Shown: positions 18,519-47,287 of the stretch, in pieces
How the letters are laid out: each line of letters opens with the position of its first letter
How positions within the stretch are numbered: position 1 is the first letter of the stretch
DNA from: Aquisalimonas sp. 2447
GTDB lineage: Bacteria > Pseudomonadota > Gammaproteobacteria > Nitrococcales > Aquisalimonadaceae
Reading direction: 5' to 3'
DNA length: 64,000 nucleotides
Assembly (NCBI RefSeq): GCF_012044895.1
Contig: NZ_CP050695.1
Coordinates: 248,001 to 312,000 of the forward strand
Program-made: the position numbers and the translations under genes
The notes under the pieces: model-generated
Told to the model about the DNA's origin: nothing
What the model saw: the letters and a program-made list of their open reading frames with translations, nothing else
The model's database searches: none

Positions 18519-19850
18519 ATGGACAAGCAGATCGATCGCCGCCAGACCGCCGCCGACTATCTCATCGCCTCGAAGCGGTGTGACATTCTCAGCCTGGAGC
18601 AGCTGCTGCGCATGGGCCGGCTGGTGGTCAGCGTCAGCAACCTGGTCCATGCGCTGCAGCGGGAACGCGGGGTCTCCAACATGTACGTGGCCTCGGGCGG
18701 GCACCGCTTCGCGGATCAGTTGCGCCCCCTGCGAGAGCGCACCCATGAAAAGGAGGCGCAGTTTCTCACCTGTCTCGACGAGATCGATACCGAGTCGGCA
18801 TGCCTGCCCGGCGCCAGCCGTCTGTTCAGCCGGATTGCGTACGTGATCCACGGTCTCGACGCCCTGGAGACGATCCGGGCAGCCGTCGATCCGCTGAACG
18901 TCGACTCGGAAACCCTGATGACGGGCTACAGCGACCTGGTCCAGGGGCTGCTGGCGGTGGTCTTCGAGGCGGCGGATTCCGCCGCGGACCCGGATGTCTC
19001 CCGCGAGCTGGTGGCCATGTTCCACCTCATGCAGGGCAAGGAGTTCGCCGGTCAGGAGCGCGCGGTGGGCGCCGCCGGATTCGCCCGCGGCGGCCTGGAC
19101 GCGGCCATGGCCGAGCGGTTGCGTCACCTGATTGACAGCCAGGAGCGCTGTTTCGAGATCTTTGCGCAATTCGCCGACGAGGCGTCCCAGGCGTTGTGGC
19201 GTGACAGCGAGGTGGAGCCCTGTTCCGCGGACATGGAGCGCCTGCGCAGGATCGCGTTCGCGTCAACGGCCGAAGGCGGGGTCAACGCGGAATACTGTGA
19301 CCTCTGGTTCGAGCTGGCCTCCCGCCGCATCGACGCCATGAAGCAGATCGAGGATCAGATCGAGGCGACGCTGGATGCGCTTTGCCACCACAAGATCGAG
19401 GCGGCGCGGGATGACCTGAACTCCCACCGCAACGAGATCGACGCCCTTGCCGAGCAGCACCAGACTGCAGGCAGTTTCGCGGTGTTCGTCAACGGTGAAT
19501 TGAGCGAGTCCGCCGGGACGACCGGCAGCGCGGCCTACTCGGCGGACATGGCGAGTTCGCAGCTCGGCCGTTCGCTGGCCGATCTGGTACAGACACAGTC
19601 CCGCCGCCTCCAGGAGATGAGCGAGGAACTGAACGCCGCCCGCGCCGCGCTGGACGAACGCAAGACCATCGAGAAGGCGAAGGGCCTGATCATGCGCCAC
19701 CGCGGGCTCAGTGAAGAAGAGGCCTACAAGTTTCTGCGTCAGCTCGCCATGGCGCAGAGCCGCAAGCTGGCGGAAGTGGCCGTCGACACCATCAACATGG
19801 CGGACATCTTCCGTACTTCCGGTGATGCCCGCCGTTCCCGCGAGTCCTGA
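18519..19850 (+). CDS. nasR: Nitrate-sensing transcription antiterminator (NIT-ANTAR)
   Basis: This is a 443-residue RNA-binding regulator. Residues about 35-310 match the all-helical NIT nitrate/nitrite-sensing domain (LVHALQRERGVSNMYVAS is the typical entry helix). Residues about 365-430 form an ANTAR domain: LDERKTIEKAKGLIMRHRG, LSEEEAYKFLRQLAMAQS, KLAEVAVDTINM. In Klebsiella NasR, nitrate binding lets ANTAR bind a two-hairpin leader RNA and prevent termination. The three leaders downstream (20038, 23529 and 30738) carry the matching hairpins, so this protein is their likely reader. It stands alone, followed by a 300-base regulatory spacer before the ABC transporter genes. Confidence 0.95.
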   Translation: MDKQIDRRQTAADYLIASKRCDILSLEQLLRMGRLVVSVSNLVHALQRERGVSNMYVASGGHRFADQLRPLRERTHEKEAQFLTCLDEIDTESACLPGASRLFSRIAYVIHGLDALETIRAAVDPLNVDSETLMTGYSDLVQGLLAVVFEAADSAADPDVSRELVAMFHLMQGKEFAGQERAVGAAGFARGGLDAAMAERLRHLIDSQERCFEIFAQFADEASQALWRDSEVEPCSADMERLRRIAFASTAEGGVNAEYCDLWFELASRRIDAMKQIEDQIEATLDALCHHKIEAARDDLNSHRNEIDALAEQHQTAGSFAVFVNGELSESAGTTGSAAYSADMASSQLGRSLADLVQTQSRRLQEMSEELNAARAALDERKTIEKAKGLIMRHRGLSEEEAYKFLRQLAMAQSRKLAEVAVDTINMADIFRTSGDARRSRES

Positions 19851-20037: not shown

Positions 20038-20124
20038 GATGGTCAATGGTGACCATCTCGCTCGAACAATGGCGTTCATCCCTGCCCATCGGTCAGCCGG
20101 TGCGGGGATGAGCGCCTTTTTTTT
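20038..20124 (+). ncRNA. ANTAR-target antitermination leader 1 (nrtA)
   Basis: Hairpin P1 is GATGGTC-AATGGT-GACCATC (20038-20057, 7-bp stem, 6-base loop). Hairpin P2 is GAAC-AATGGC-GTTC (20064-20077). Both hexaloops have A at position 1 and G at position 4, the bases ANTAR proteins read. P2 shares bases 20071-20077 with the 5' arm of the terminator stem, so P1/P2 binding by NasR would exclude the terminator. The layout is that of the Klebsiella nasF leader. Confidence 0.9.
20071..20124 (+). terminator. Leader attenuator terminator upstream of nrtA
   Basis: GGCGTTCATCCC (20071-20082) pairs with GGGGATGAGCGCC (20104-20116) and is followed by eight T residues (20117-20124). It lies 27 bases before nrtA and is mutually exclusive with leader hairpin P2. 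Confidence 0.92.
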
Positions 20125-23528: not shown

Positions 23529-23615
23529 TGCGGTCAATGGCGACCGCACCATGGACAACGGCGTTCACGATCGCTCGGCCCTGACAGGGCTGGCGATTGT
23601 GAGCGCCTTTTTTTT
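23529..23615 (+). ncRNA. ANTAR-target antitermination leader 2 (nirB)
   Basis: P1 is TGCGGTC-AATGGC-GACCGCA (23529-23548), a 7-bp stem and hexaloop. P2 is TGGAC-AACGGC-GTTCA (23552-23567) with one G-U pair. Both loops have A1 and G4. P2 shares 23560-23567 with the 5' arm of the terminator, giving the same switch as leader 1. The overall resemblance to leader 1, including the AATGGC and GGCGTTCA strings, indicates a common origin or strong selection. Confidence 0.9.
23560..23615 (+). terminator. Leader attenuator terminator upstream of nirB
   Basis: GGCGTTCACGATCGC (23560-23574) pairs, with G-U pairs, to GGCGATTGTGAGCGCC (23592-23607), followed by eight T residues (23608-23615). It lies 43 bases before the nirB start and is exclusive with leader hairpin P2. 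Confidence 0.92.
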
Positions 23616-26090: not shown

Positions 26091-26103
26091 GCCGCGGTCG
26101 GAA

Positions 26104-26182
26104 TCGCGACTGACGTCGCTCCCACGGTGAGGCCTTTCCCGGTGCCTTCCCAAGGGCACCGTGGGAGCGACGTCAGTCGCGA
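26104..26182. repeat. Inverted REP pair between nirB and nirD
   Basis: Arms of 26 bases (26104-26129 and 26157-26182) are perfect inverted copies, 27 bases apart. The core reads GTGGGAGCGACGT followed by an AGTCGCGA half. The whole can fold into one long hairpin inside the operon mRNA. It has no T tract, so it is a REP/BIME rather than a terminator. It may protect the upstream nirB message or lower nirD-nasA expression. Confidence 0.88.
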
Positions 26183-26234
26183 CAGCTGCCTGCCTCGCCG
26201 GTACCAGAACACGCAATACAGCACAGGTGAATCC

Positions 26235-30401: not shown

Positions 30402-30505
30402 ACGCCCCTGCGCCATCCCGTCCCTCCGGTCCGATGCTCGTCCGCACCACCGGCCCGCGGTGTGGCGACGGCAACTGCAGGTGCGCCACGCTGATGCGGG
30501 GCGCC

Positions 30506-30722
30506 TGCACTGGTCGATTCTTGATGGCTGGGGGGCTGCCCCAGGGGGGTGCAGACGAGCGTTGCACTGCTCTGCCGCGGTGCAATATCGGCTTTTCCGG
30601 CATCTCGAGCCTGGACTGGGCAGGCCCTTGGCGGTCGCGCGTCTGCCGGGCGAGAGATTGCAGTGACGCCGGTTTCAGGGGTGGAGCCGAGAACCGGACA
30701 GCTATCTGGCACCGGGTTTGCA
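30506..30722 (+). promoter_or_regulatory. NtrC half-site cluster and strong sigma-54 promoter, nitrate transporter
   Basis: TGGCAC-CGGGT-TTGCA at 30707-30722 is an exact -24/-12 match. Upstream lie NtrC-type half-sites TGCACT (30506), GGTGCA (30548), TGCACT (30563) and GGTGCA (30579), though none forms a canonical N5-spaced pair. Predicted start is near 30734, just before leader hairpin P1. The remainder of the 435-base gap from 30401 to 30836 shows no gene. Confidence 0.72.
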
Positions 30723-30737
30723 ACCCCATTGTTGATC

Positions 30738-30821
30738 GCTGCCAATGCTGGCGGCACGAACAGGCACAGGCGCCTGCGCAGCATCCCTGGAGAGGGAGTG
30801 CCGCGCAGGCGCTTTTTTTTT
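30738..30821 (+). ncRNA. ANTAR-target antitermination leader 3 (MFS nitrate transporter)
   Basis: P1 is GCTGCC-AATGCT-GGCGGC (30738-30755, one G-U pair). P2 is CAGGC-ACAGGC-GCCTG (30761-30776). Both hexaloops have A1 and G4. The P2 3' arm and part of its loop (30770-30776) are also the start of the terminator 5' arm. The sequence is unlike leaders 1 and 2 outside the loop rules, which argues that structure is under selection rather than recent copying. Confidence 0.88.
30770..30821 (+). terminator. Leader attenuator terminator upstream of the nitrate transporter
   Basis: GCGCCTGCGC (30770-30779) pairs perfectly with GCGCAGGCGC (30803-30812), followed by nine T residues (30813-30821). The transporter start codon is 15 bases further on. 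Confidence 0.92.
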
Positions 30822-30835
30822 GTGGAGACGAAGCA

Positions 30836-32164
30836 ATGACCATGGCAGCACGTATTCGGGGGAGTCGCCTGGCGACCTTGATCGTTACCTCGTTCGGTTT
30901 CTTCATGGGGATATCAGGCATCGCGCTGTTCGGCCCCACCGCCGCCCAGTTGCGTGAACCCATGGAGCTGACCGCCACCCAGGTGGGCTGGCTGGTGGCC
31001 ATGCCAGCCCTCAGTGGCGCCCTCATCCGGGTGATGTTCGGCGCCTGGGCGGATGCCACCGGCGGCAAGAAGCCGTTTCTCGCCCTGCTCGGCATCATGC
31101 TGGCGGCCATGGCCGTGCTGGTGTGGCTGCTGTTCGCCTATTATCCGGACAACATGGGCCCCGCCTTCTTCCCGTTGCTGCTCCTGCTGGGGGCCGTGAT
31201 CGGTTTCGGCGTGGACGTCTTCTCCGTGGGTATTCCCATGAACGCCTACTGGAACCCCATGCGCAAGCAGGGAACGGCACTGGGCGTCTTCGCCGGCTTC
31301 GGCAATGCCGGCGCCGGCGCCTTTACGCTGCTGGTGCCGTTCATGGTGGCCGCGCTCACGCTGCCGGGAGCTTACCTGGTCTGGATCGCCCTGGTGGGGC
31401 TGGCCTTCGTTCTTGTTGCGCTGTTCGCCCAGAATGCCCCGTACTTCCAGCTGCGCGCCGATCACGGTCTGGATCAGGCCGAGGCGGAACGCGTGGCCGG
31501 TGAGCTCGGTCAGGAGGCCTTCCCGCGGGGCAGCATGTTCCCGGCGCTCATGGAGGCGGCACGCGCCTGGCGCACATGGGCCCTGGTCAGCACCTATTTC
31601 GTCTCCTTCGGCGGGTTCCTGGCGCTGACTGCATGGCTGCCCACCTACTGGTACACCTTCCACGAGTTGCCCATTACCACTGCGGGGGTACTGGCCGCCG
31701 TGTTCGGGATTCTTACCGGGCTGATCCGGGTCCCCGGCGGCCTGCTCGCGGACCGCATCGGCGGCGAGCCGGCCAATATGCTGGCCTTCAGCGCTGCCCT
31801 GGCCGGCGCCCTGCTGCTCACTTTCACCGGCACCGTTGCGGTTGCCTTCCTCGGCACCCTGCTGATTGCGTTCGGGTTCGGCGTGGCGAATGCCGCCCAG
31901 TTCAGTCTGGTGCCGGTCTATCTGCCCTGTGCCATCGGTGGGGCTGCGGGCTGGATCGGGGGGCTCGGCGGTTTCGGCGGCACACTGCTGCCCCCGGTGA
32001 TGGGTGCGTTCGCGGACTGGGGCGGGCACGGCGGCTATGCCACCGGTTTCGTTGTCTTCGCCGGCCTGTGCGTGTTCAGTCTGGCGGTGATCACGCTGCT
32101 GCGTCTGACCCGGCCGGATGCGGCCGACGAGCTGGTTGCCGCAGAGCCTGCAGCAGCCAGCTGA
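30836..32164 (+). CDS. MFS nitrate/nitrite transporter (NarK/NasA family)
   Basis: This is a 442-residue major-facilitator protein with about twelve hydrophobic segments. Nitrate-porter features include GFFMGISGIALFGPT in helix 1, GALIRVMFGAWADATGGKK (the substrate Arg and the helix 2-3 loop), and a glycine-rich nitrate signature GVFAGFGNAGAGAFTLLVPF, repeated in the C-half as GWIGGLGGFGGTLLPP. It would import nitrate or exchange nitrate and nitrite, giving a second uptake route beside the ABC system. It has its own leader and promoter. A second in-frame ATG is at 30842. It ends convergently 3 bases from the next gene. Confidence 0.93.
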   Translation: MTMAARIRGSRLATLIVTSFGFFMGISGIALFGPTAAQLREPMELTATQVGWLVAMPALSGALIRVMFGAWADATGGKKPFLALLGIMLAAMAVLVWLLFAYYPDNMGPAFFPLLLLLGAVIGFGVDVFSVGIPMNAYWNPMRKQGTALGVFAGFGNAGAGAFTLLVPFMVAALTLPGAYLVWIALVGLAFVLVALFAQNAPYFQLRADHGLDQAEAERVAGELGQEAFPRGSMFPALMEAARAWRTWALVSTYFVSFGGFLALTAWLPTYWYTFHELPITTAGVLAAVFGILTGLIRVPGGLLADRIGGEPANMLAFSAALAGALLLTFTGTVAVAFLGTLLIAFGFGVANAAQFSLVPVYLPCAIGGAAGWIGGLGGFGGTLLPPVMGAFADWGGHGGYATGFVVFAGLCVFSLAVITLLRLTRPDAADELVAAEPAAAS

Positions 32165-43962: not shown

Positions 43963-45006
43963 TTATGTACCTAACTCAGCAGGCGCCTGAAGCGCCTGCC
44001 TGGTGCAGGGTTTGGCTCGCAGAAGCGCCACGGCCAGGCGCGGGACCATGTCGGCCATCTGGAAGCGCCGGTTGAAGCGGTACTGCACATCGGCGAGGTA
44101 GCGAGCGGCGTACTTACGGAAGCGGAACGCATGATAGGTGCCACTGAGAGCGGTTTTCACGTTGCCGAGCACGACGTTGAGCCAGGGGAATGGTTCGATC
44201 TCGGTGCCGGCCTTGCCTCGCGGCGGCAGCACGACGTGGTGGGTATGGCCCATCTGGCCGAGCACCTCGAAGCCGAGCAGCCCGTCAGTGGTCACCTGAC
44301 AGCCGGGCGCCAGGGCCCGCTCGCCCCACGCCCGCAACGCCTTGAACGAGAAGCTCGCCACCGGATCGAAGCGCACAAAGTGGGGGCGGTCGTCGTGCAT
44401 CTCCACGGCGGCGATGAAGGCGACCTTAGTTCTCCGAGCCCCGCCCGGTGGTGCCGCCGGTGCGCTCGCCGCCGAGGTAGGCGTCATCGGCGCGCACATC
44501 GCCGGTGAGCGAGCGTGTGGCCTCGCGCTGGTGCATCGCCTCCATGATCTTGTGCTTGAGCAGCCAGGCCGTGCGATAGGACACCCCGAGGTGGCGACGC
44601 AGCTCCAGGGCCGCCATGTTGGTCTTCGACTGGGAGATCAGATAGATCGCCAGGAACCACGTGGTCAGAGGCAGATGGCTGCGCTCCATCATCGTCCCCA
44701 CGCGCAGGCTACACTGGTACTGGCAGCCCTGGCACAGCCAGTAGGGCTGATCACGGCGCCGGAAGGTGTGGGCGTGGCCGCCGCCGCAGCGCGGGCAGAC
44801 GAAGCCCTGTGGCCAGCGCCACTGGACGAGCGCCGCCTCGCACTGGGCCTCGGTGCCGTAGCTGGCCAGGAAGGCGCCGAGGGACAGGCCGGGTTGCATC
44901 TGGATCTCATTGATCGCCATGGGCTGGGCTCCGGCGGAAGTGTTATATAAATATGCAGCACTTATCCGTCCCCCGACAGCCGTTTTGAGCTACGTACATA
45001 ATCAGG
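43958..45006 (-). mobile_element. IS1595-family insertion sequence
   Basis: The element is 1049 bases long. Imperfect terminal inverted repeats start CCTGATTATGTAC at 43958 and, on the other strand, at 45006; the next eight bases differ at two positions. It carries one transposase gene, now frameshifted. The eight bases on each side (AATAGTCA and AGCAAGGA) do not match, so the expected target duplication is missing. That implies recombination or deletion at one edge after insertion. Confidence 0.85.
43963..44920 (-). pseudogene. IS1595-family transposase, frameshifted
   Basis: The N-terminal part (44426-44920) has the zinc-binding CPRCGGGHAHTF and CQGCQYQC blocks, then the helix region LGVSYRTAWLLKHKIMEAM and the first catalytic Asp in DVRADDAYLGGERTGG. 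It stops at GRGSEN. The remainder (43963 to about 44430) continues in another frame with VAFIAAVEMHDDRPHFVRF, TDGLLGFEVLGQMGHTHHVV and the C-terminal HAFRFRKYAARYLADVQYRFNRRF. A single extra base at GAGAAC-T-AAGGTC separates the two frames. Most likely it is an inactivating mutation; programmed shifting is possible but not typical of this family. Confidence 0.85.
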
Positions 45007-45682: not shown

Positions 45683-47287
45683 CTACTCAGCGGGTTTGAG
45701 CGCGTATAGGCTCTCGTCCTGATGCCACGGCAGCAGTCGGTCGATGGCCTCGCCGGTTGTCGCGCCCGGCAGGTTCTTTAACACCTCGAGCAGGTACGCG
45801 TAGGGCTCCAGGCCGTTGATCTTGGCCGTCTCGATGACGCTGTAGATCGTGGCACTGGCGTGCGCACCCCGCGGCGTCTGACTGAACAGCCAGTTTTTGC
45901 GCCCCACCACGAACGGCCGAATGGCGTTCTCCGCGGGGTTGTTGTCCAGCGGGATGCGGCCATCCTCCAGGAAGCGGATGAGCCGGGGCCATTGGCTGTT
46001 GAGGTAGTGCACGGCCTTGCCGATGGCGCTCTTCGGCGGCACCTTCTCCAGGGACTGGTCAAGCCACTGGCGCAGATCCTCGATCAGCGGCCGGCTGTGC
46101 GTGGCGCGCAGGCGTTCACGCTTCTCAACGGGCAGGCCCTGGGCTTCGCGCTCCACCCGGTAGAGCTTGCCGATGGACGCCAGCGCCCGGTCGGCCTTGC
46201 CGGTCTTGCCCTTGGGCTGGACCTTCTGGGCCTCTTTGAACTTGCGGCGCGCATGCGCCCAGCACCCGGCATGGGTGATGGCATTATCGCGCACGACCTG
46301 GGCATAGCCCTCGTAGCCGTCGGTGAGCAGGATACCACCATAGTCATCCAGCAGGCGCCGCGGGACCTGGCCCGAGCGGCTGGGATCGTAGTCGAACAGC
46401 ACCACCTCGGCTCCGGGCGGCCCGCCGCGTTGGACCCACATGTACGAGGTGCTGGAGGCGGCCCGCCCGGGCTCGGTGTTCACCTGCACGGTGGTCTCAT
46501 CCATGTGGATGAGCTCCGCACTGTGCAAATGGGCGCGCATGCGCTCGGCCAGTGGCGCGAGCAACGCACCCAGGTCCACCATCCAGCGGGCGAGCGTGTT
46601 CCGTGGCAGCTCCAGGCCCAGTCGTTTGAAGACCTGCTCCTGGCGGTACAGCGGCAGCGCGTCCTGGTACTTGGCGGTGGCGATATAGGCAAGCAGTCCG
46701 GGGCTCGCGTTGCTCTTCGGCAGCGGCTGCGGCGGCAGATCGGCGATCTGGACACCGTCCTCGCAGGCCCGGCAGGCGTACTTGATGCGCACATGGCGCA
46801 GCACCTGGATCTGGGCCGGGATGATGTCGAGCTGCTCGGTGACCTCTTCGCCGATGCGGGTGAGCGCACCGCAGCCGCAGGCACACTGCTGTTCGTCCTC
46901 GGGGAGATCGTGGACGATGTCCACGCGAGGCAGCTCCGGCGGCAGTGGGGCGCGCCCACCCCGGCGACGCTTGCCGCCACTGGGGGCCGGCTGGTTTTCC
47001 TCTTCCGCCTCGGCAGTCTCACCTGACTCGGCGGGCTCTTCCACCAGGCTCTCGGCCTCGTCGAAGAACAGGTCCTGCTGCTTGATGCTGTACTTCTCGG
47101 TGGAGGGGCCGAAGCGGTTGTCCAGCAGCAGCCGGATTTGCTCGAACAGCGAGCGCTTCTCTGCCGCCCACGCGGCCTCCTTCTCGGCGAGTTGGGCCTG
47201 GAGGCGTTCGACCAGAGCGCGCTGCTCATCGAGCTCGCGCTGGAGATCGGAACTGGATGGCAACGTGTTGGTATCGGCCCGTTTCAT
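45683..47287 (-). CDS. tnpC: IS66 family transposase TnpC
   Basis: This is the 534-residue DDE transposase. The N-terminal coiled coil (LQRELDEQRALVERLQAQLAEKEA) is followed by an IS66 helix-turn-helix/zinc-binding part with CACGCG and CRAC. The catalytic core contains IHMDETTVQV, LLTDGYEGYA and HAGCWAHARRKF, with NNPAENAIRPFVVGRKNWLF near the end. The length is typical. Intact, so the element may still be mobile. Confidence 0.96.
   Translation of the reverse strand: MKRADTNTLPSSSDLQRELDEQRALVERLQAQLAEKEAAWAAEKRSLFEQIRLLLDNRFGPSTEKYSIKQQDLFFDEAESLVEEPAESGETAEAEEENQPAPSGGKRRRGGRAPLPPELPRVDIVHDLPEDEQQCACGCGALTRIGEEVTEQLDIIPAQIQVLRHVRIKYACRACEDGVQIADLPPQPLPKSNASPGLLAYIATAKYQDALPLYRQEQVFKRLGLELPRNTLARWMVDLGALLAPLAERMRAHLHSAELIHMDETTVQVNTEPGRAASSTSYMWVQRGGPPGAEVVLFDYDPSRSGQVPRRLLDDYGGILLTDGYEGYAQVVRDNAITHAGCWAHARRKFKEAQKVQPKGKTGKADRALASIGKLYRVEREAQGLPVEKRERLRATHSRPLIEDLRQWLDQSLEKVPPKSAIGKAVHYLNSQWPRLIRFLEDGRIPLDNNPAENAIRPFVVGRKNWLFSQTPRGAHASATIYSVIETAKINGLEPYAYLLEVLKNLPGATTGEAIDRLLPWHQDESLYALKPAE

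Follow-up and report, generated by a model that had tools for sequence, protein, structure and literature searches.

A probable ANTAR-type antitermination leader upstream of a NarK-like transporter gene in Aquisalimonas sp. 2447

Does the NarK-like MFS transporter gene that follows cobA in a nitrate assimilation cluster of Aquisalimonas sp. 2447 possess an RNA switch of its own, and would this switch place it under ANTAR control, as an earlier note on this DNA had claimed? The cluster lies in the 64,000-nucleotide stretch of DNA that we analysed as a whole (the window) and is ordered NIT-ANTAR regulator, leader 1, nrtABC, leader 2, nirB, nirD, nitrate reductase, cobA, leader 3, MFS gene. The regulator (443 aa; 18519-19850, + strand), encoded 11 kb upstream of leader 3, matches the Pfam families NIT (201 bits) and ANTAR (67 bits) with an N-terminal NIT and a C-terminal ANTAR domain in a single protein, the arrangement by which we call it NasR-type; it is the proposed cognate regulator. 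In a phmmer comparison it also matched the solved nitrate regulatory protein 4akk (E 7e-48) over two stretches that span the NIT and ANTAR parts.

Leader 3 (+ strand throughout) begins with two tandem hexaloop hairpins. P1 (30738-30755, GCTGCC-AATGCT-GGCGGC) pairs 30738-30743 with 30750-30755 around the loop AATGCT (30744-30749), and P2, the putative antiterminator (30761-30776, CAGGC-ACAGGC-GCCTG), pairs 30761-30765 with 30772-30776 around the loop ACAGGC (30766-30771). Both loops carry A at position 1 and G at position 4 and are closed by a C:G pair (GCC[AATGCT]GGC and GGC[ACAGGC]GCC); the coordinates and loops given in the earlier note, together with its remark that A1 and G4 are kept, were all correct on re-reading the sequence. 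The intrinsic terminator (30768-30821) is made up of a hairpin at 30768-30814, whose 12-bp outer helix pairs 30768-30779 with 30803-30814, and of nine T at 30813-30821. Because bases 30768-30776 belong to P2 as well as to the terminator, the two structures are mutually exclusive. When the leader was folded computationally, an RNA ending just past P2 formed P1 and P2, whereas the full-length RNA folded as P1 plus terminator (-50.1 kcal/mol versus -36.0 kcal/mol when P1 and P2 were enforced); the minimum-energy fold of P1 also pairs A1 with U6 within the loop. Between the end of the T-run and the ATG of the MFS gene (442 aa; 30836-32164, + strand) lie 14 bases, so that almost any MFS transcript must cross the terminator, and a likely ribosome-binding sequence, GGAG, was read at 30824-30827 (+ strand). 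The same P1/P2/terminator layout is found in leader 1 before nrtA (20038-20124, + strand; loops AATGGT and AATGGC) and in leader 2 before nirB (23529-23615, + strand; loops AATGGC and AACGGC).

Upstream of P1, the -24/-12 sequence TGGCACCGGGTTTGCA (30707-30722, + strand) is an exact match to the sigma-54 consensus TGGCAC-N5-TTGCA, with GG and GC ten bases apart, and transcription from it would start near 30732. This is the sole match in the window with no or one mismatch (1.45 expected per window at one mismatch or fewer), and the exact pattern is present in two copies in the genome versus three for the reversed control. The motif by itself is therefore not significant, and its support comes from position and conservation. 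With one genome match to the sigma-54 family and with the motif kept in a sister genome (see below), a sigma-54-like start of the MFS transcript is plausible; no sigma-70-type site was found within 30402-30860. Thus, the promoter sequence that the earlier note had described is exact as stated, and the start that it placed just before the first hairpin is plausible. Further upstream, TGCTCTGCCGCGGTGCA (30568-30584, + strand) is a tentative NtrC-like site with two mismatches to the consensus. Every base of it but the first is unchanged in the sister genome, and the support is weak, with 16 NtrC-like matches at two mismatches in the window against 6.6 expected.

An orthologous leader precedes the same MFS gene in the sister genome G002, which belongs to the same genus. 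The two leaders are identical at 78 of 90 positions, compared to 171 of 306 in the intergenic DNA upstream. All 18 bases of P1 and 15 of the 16 bases of P2 are identical, the single change turning an A-U pair into G-U, and identity amounts to 39/47 for the terminator and 13/16 for the promoter, whose boxes are kept as TGGCAT-N5-TTGCA. In the relatives G003, G006, G007 and G011 the MFS gene by the NIT-ANTAR cluster is distant (27-28% identity) and lies 3' of the reductase gene or of cobA; the 450 bases that precede it showed no leader and no T-run. Among these NIT-ANTAR genomes, a leader of its own for the MFS gene is thus seen only in G002 and in the genome studied here (G000).

We then asked how leader 3 stands against chance. 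A rule-based scan for two A..G.. hexaloop hairpins with stems of at least 4 bp and an overlapping terminator returned only three sites on the two strands of the window (20045, 23536 and 30744) and none on either strand of 30 first-order Markov copies of it. The rule had been devised after leader 3 had been seen, and a hold-out covariance model is the fairer test. For this model (R1), 17 leaders were aligned, of which L177, with its longer linker, and four leaders with 7-base loops were left out; the remaining 12 included leaders 1 and 2 and excluded leader 3. Leader 3 scored 22.1 bits (E 0.0009) and ranked third in the window, the next site reaching 11.7 bits and the training members leaders 1 and 2 reaching 42.3 and 39.5 bits. 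Over the whole genome, R1 gave other matches of up to 19.9 bits, leader 3 itself being absent among the matches listed (the best 150 of 5604 candidates), and none of the eight other matches that we inspected had an overlapping terminator. The two hairpins alone therefore stand modestly above background, and it is the overlapping terminator and the position that carry the case. At position 5, moreover, the P1 loop AATGCT has no G, unlike that of 10 of the 12 training leaders; L174 and L182 are the two others without it.

In a ten-sequence alignment that includes leader 3 and its orthologue, and from which L172, L174, L175 and L182 were further left out, 99 of 99 cells are standard pairs and eight of the ten pairs have changed on both sides; shuffled and slid controls gave lower values. 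As the ten sequences were picked and trimmed around the hairpins, the full pairing is partly by construction, and the two-sided changes are the informative part. The statement of the earlier note that the stems differ completely from those of leaders 1 and 2 is correct, and the stems nevertheless still pair.

Two further scans are to be read within the limits of their rules. A generic terminator scan did not list the leader 3 terminator, its single match in 30402-30860 being a weak 5-bp stem at 30714-30726, probably because its rules (loop of 3-8 bases, simple stem) are unsuited to a bulged helix. With five MFS proteins as queries, 80 related loci were found, and a strict scan of 113 loci gave matches in just two, L001 and L003, which correspond to leaders 1 and 3 of the window itself. 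This strict scan is no census, because it missed the nirB leaders of relatives, which have a 7-base first loop or fall outside other limits of the rule. These leaders, in NIT-ANTAR relatives, lie at L146:10699-10736, L148:12675-12712 (- strand), L149:6726-6763 (- strand) and L152:10566-10602, and before nirB in L147. Their first loops of seven bases (AUCGACG, AUUGAUC, ACCGAUA and ACCGGUC, and ACCGAUC in L147) keep A1 and G4, and the second hairpin retains a six-base loop; the L147 leader folds imperfectly.

The layout of leader 3 recurs in the Rfam family RF03032 (narK RNA), whose consensus has a GGCAC...TTGC stretch followed by two A..G.. hexaloop stretches (AACGGC and AAAGAC), of which Rfam indicates pairing for the first only; that the second is a hairpin is our reading of the consensus letters. 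Leader 3 departs from this consensus in the P1 loop AATGCT and in the P2 stem. Full-length matches scored 24.5 bits for leader 2 and 16.8 bits for leader 3, both short of the gathering score of 43.2 and hence of membership by this criterion, and leader 3 was absent among the matches listed in a whole-genome run (the best 150 of 883 candidates). Across 369 genomes of the class, RF03032 matched 16 sites in 15 genomes at E 0.001, and two sites exceeded the gathering score. Both lie before MFS genes with NarK as their best NCBIfam family (314 bits in L170 and 262 bits in L171, cut-off 311.7), and in L170 the leader lies 3' of a receiver-ANTAR gene. Among the 14 remaining sites, eight lie before NrtA-like frames, and the same comparison left six unassigned.

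All other Rfam matches fell below their gathering scores and were set aside as chance or generic terminator shape, among them SR6 antitoxin at leaders 2 and 3 (27.9 and 25.7 of 55 bits) and the strongest one, mir-605 (39 of 98 bits), at 26103-26184. The latter interval is an inverted repeat between nirB and nirD with sub-threshold matches to microRNA hairpin models. As the peptide GSDVSRDS is common to frames at 26103-26184 and downstream of nirD (26646 onward), this repeat may belong to a repetitive element.

The MFS protein matches Pfam MFS_1, has TIGR00886 NarK as its best NCBIfam family (156.3 bits, under the curated cut-off of 311.7), and matched NarK and NarU as the only solved structures at E 0.001. 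From the family and the surrounding nitrate assimilation cluster, its substrate would be nitrate or nitrite. A paralogue with 72% identity is encoded at 2.46 Mb in the same genome beside another NarK-like frame, and our scan found no such leader there. The region around it (L116, G000:C1:2456000-2470000) is a respiratory-looking block with several NarK-like frames, a two-component-like pair and, by eye, part of a nitrate-reductase-like frame, and an IS1595-type transposase frame (7090-8115 of L116) seems to interrupt one of its NarK-like frames. Transposase frames are also present in the window downstream of the nitrate cluster, one of IS1595 type with a zinc ribbon (44426-44920, - strand) and one of the IS66 family (45683-47287, - strand).

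Taken together, the anatomy, the hold-out covariance model, the conservation in the orthologue and the nearby NIT-ANTAR gene make an ANTAR-type antitermination leader before the NarK-like MFS gene a well-supported prediction. In this form the central claim of the earlier note stands as to the type of leader before the MFS gene, and the ANTAR control of a nitrate transporter that it announced is best worded conditionally. We consider it highly likely that the MFS gene is transcribed as a unit of its own from a sigma-54 promoter, through a terminator-antiterminator leader that is read by the nearby NIT-ANTAR protein in response to nitrate or nitrite. The choice of regulator, inducer, start site and transported substrate in this model follows by analogy with the published NasR mechanism (PMC7496416, PMC3369931). 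The promoter would be gated by nitrogen status, and RNA polymerase would start near 30732 and make P1 and P2 first. Without inducer, the longer terminator helix would displace P2 and halt transcription at about 30821, ahead of the MFS gene. With nitrate or nitrite at hand, the NasR-type protein would bind the two A..G.. hexaloops and stabilise P2, and P2, once held, would block the terminator and allow read-through into the transporter gene. The same NIT-ANTAR protein would also act on leader 1 (nrtABC) and leader 2 (nirBD onward), such that ABC uptake, MFS uptake or exchange, and reduction could be switched jointly.

That the reader of leader 3 is instead, or in addition, a NasT-like receiver-ANTAR protein strikes us as rather unlikely. 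Such a protein (193 aa) accounts for a second ANTAR match in the genome, at G000:C1:1697076, and its gene is followed by a same-strand frame that resembles NrtA by eye; receiver-ANTAR proteins use the same two-hairpin layout, as illustrated by the L170 leader, which has a receiver-ANTAR gene on one side and an MFS gene on the other, and the loops of leader 3 are unlike those of leaders 1 and 2. Against this, the receiver-ANTAR gene is 1.4 Mb off whereas the NIT-ANTAR gene adjoins the cluster, and the receiver-ANTAR gene seems to have an adjacent target of its own. This fourth candidate attenuator, read from the sequence between that gene and the NrtA-like frame (about G000:C1:1696750-1696930; L117:6750-6930, - strand in L117), comprises a sigma-54-like TGGCATGGGGTTTGCT, a hairpin with the hexaloop AATGGC and a terminator (GGGGTGCC...GGGGCACCCC-TTTTT), and neither inspection by eye nor the scan found a second hexaloop hairpin in it. 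G002 likewise combines the MFS leader with a NIT-ANTAR gene adjoining nirB, but with four ANTAR matches in all, that genome does not discriminate between the two regulators.

Two further readings were weighed. A terminator is to be expected after cobA, and as the scores of the two hairpins by themselves come close to the genome background, the hairpin and T-run could in principle merely end the nirB-to-cobA operon, with an ordinary promoter for the MFS gene and coincidental hexaloops. We hold this to be very unlikely: the 14 bases between the T-run and the ATG afford no space for a promoter, the terminator begins 367 bases past the end of the cobA frame, both hairpins, loops included, are conserved in G002 well beyond the flank, and P2 overlaps the terminator as it does in leaders 1 and 2. 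A plain operon terminator was accordingly rejected on the distance to the ATG and on the overlap with conserved hairpins. Even less credible is a protein that starts upstream, with leader 3 inside its coding sequence. Indeed, the frame is open from 30434 through leader 3, that is for 161 codons upstream of the ATG at 30836, but the same frame is open for just 33 codons in G002, where the T-run is one base different (eight instead of nine) and the frame is shifted. This extended frame was discarded, as it is not kept in the sister genome.

How does this arrangement compare with known ANTAR leaders? Published work describes the NasR target as a two-hairpin RNA with a C:G closing pair, part of the SELEX consensus for NasR (PMC7496416), and a preference for A1 and G4 (PMC7496416; PMC3369931), and a 2012 survey reported leaders of this type upstream of nitrate/nitrite transporters (PMC3369931). 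The Klebsiella nasF leader resembles leader 3 in regulator type (NasR, a NIT-ANTAR protein), two-hairpin target and terminator overlap, and general nitrogen (Ntr) control likewise extends to the nasF cluster (PMC7496416, PMC3369931 and PMC5424462). In Klebsiella, however, a single leader serves the nasFEDCBA operon, whereas the present cluster has three units, an MFS gene among them, each with its own leader. In Paracoccus denitrificans, nasA codes for a NarK-like nitrate/proton symporter, and its leader RNA is bound by the ANTAR protein NasT; mutation of hairpin I severely lowers expression, and the chromosomal mutant does not grow on nitrate (PMC3795266, PMC5424462 and PMC5217062). That case differs from leader 3 in its two-protein sensor, NasS-NasT, and in that the transporter gene heads the nasABGHC operon. 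The Bradyrhizobium narK-bjgb-flp-nasC unit includes an MFS narK gene with predicted NasT hairpins in its leader, and under assimilating conditions a narK-lacZ fusion is induced by nitrate and undetectable in a nasT mutant (PMC6759348 and PMC4724949); under denitrifying, non-assimilating conditions narK is higher in the nasT mutant (PMC6759348). NasT thus acts there, versus the NIT-ANTAR protein proposed for leader 3. With RF03032 and the NasT control of the MFS genes narK and nasA described in PMC4724949, PMC5424462, PMC3795266 and PMC6759348, the earlier note's statement that it was not aware of a well-described MFS porter attenuated in this way no longer holds. Leader 3 is a well-supported further example of a described class of switch, and no new system.

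A different conserved leader, absent from the window, was encountered in other genomes. It consists of a TGGCA-type sequence, the block GACCAGGCC-N-GGTACGAGT.CGTC and then a hairpin with an A..G.. hexaloop, and copies lie at L154:7351, L155:4131 (- strand), L156:6358, L153:7574 (- strand), L150:17357 (- strand), L152:6493 and, in L197, near 1500 (- strand). In the L153 copy, from G020, the hexaloop has G as its first base. These leaders precede NarK-like MFS genes in five genomes and nrtA in two, no T-run was found between leader and gene in six copies, the L154 copy had no Rfam match at E 1, and the exact GACCAGGCC-block pattern occurs in 2 of 369 genomes of the class. They may be NasT-type leaders with another first element and without an intrinsic terminator.

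Leader 3 leaves the picture of ANTAR control unchanged. It provides a clean case of an MFS transporter gene that makes up an ANTAR-type unit by itself, next to ABC-uptake and reductase genes that have leaders of their own, and a real RNA switch was here picked from raw sequence alone. As a tentative scenario, which we regard as possible though not probable, a duplicate respiratory-type NarK may, in this genus, have joined the assimilatory regulon by way of its own sigma-54 promoter and ANTAR leader, with the NIT-ANTAR protein tuning three units or, possibly, a NasT-like protein reading leader 3 and its divergent loops instead. If this recruitment had taken place, two ANTAR proteins in one cell might split the cluster between them, the stems of leader 3 being unrelated to those of its neighbours. 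Leader 3 is of use mainly as a case in which to study how targets are shared out between a NasR-type and a NasT-type protein within one cell.
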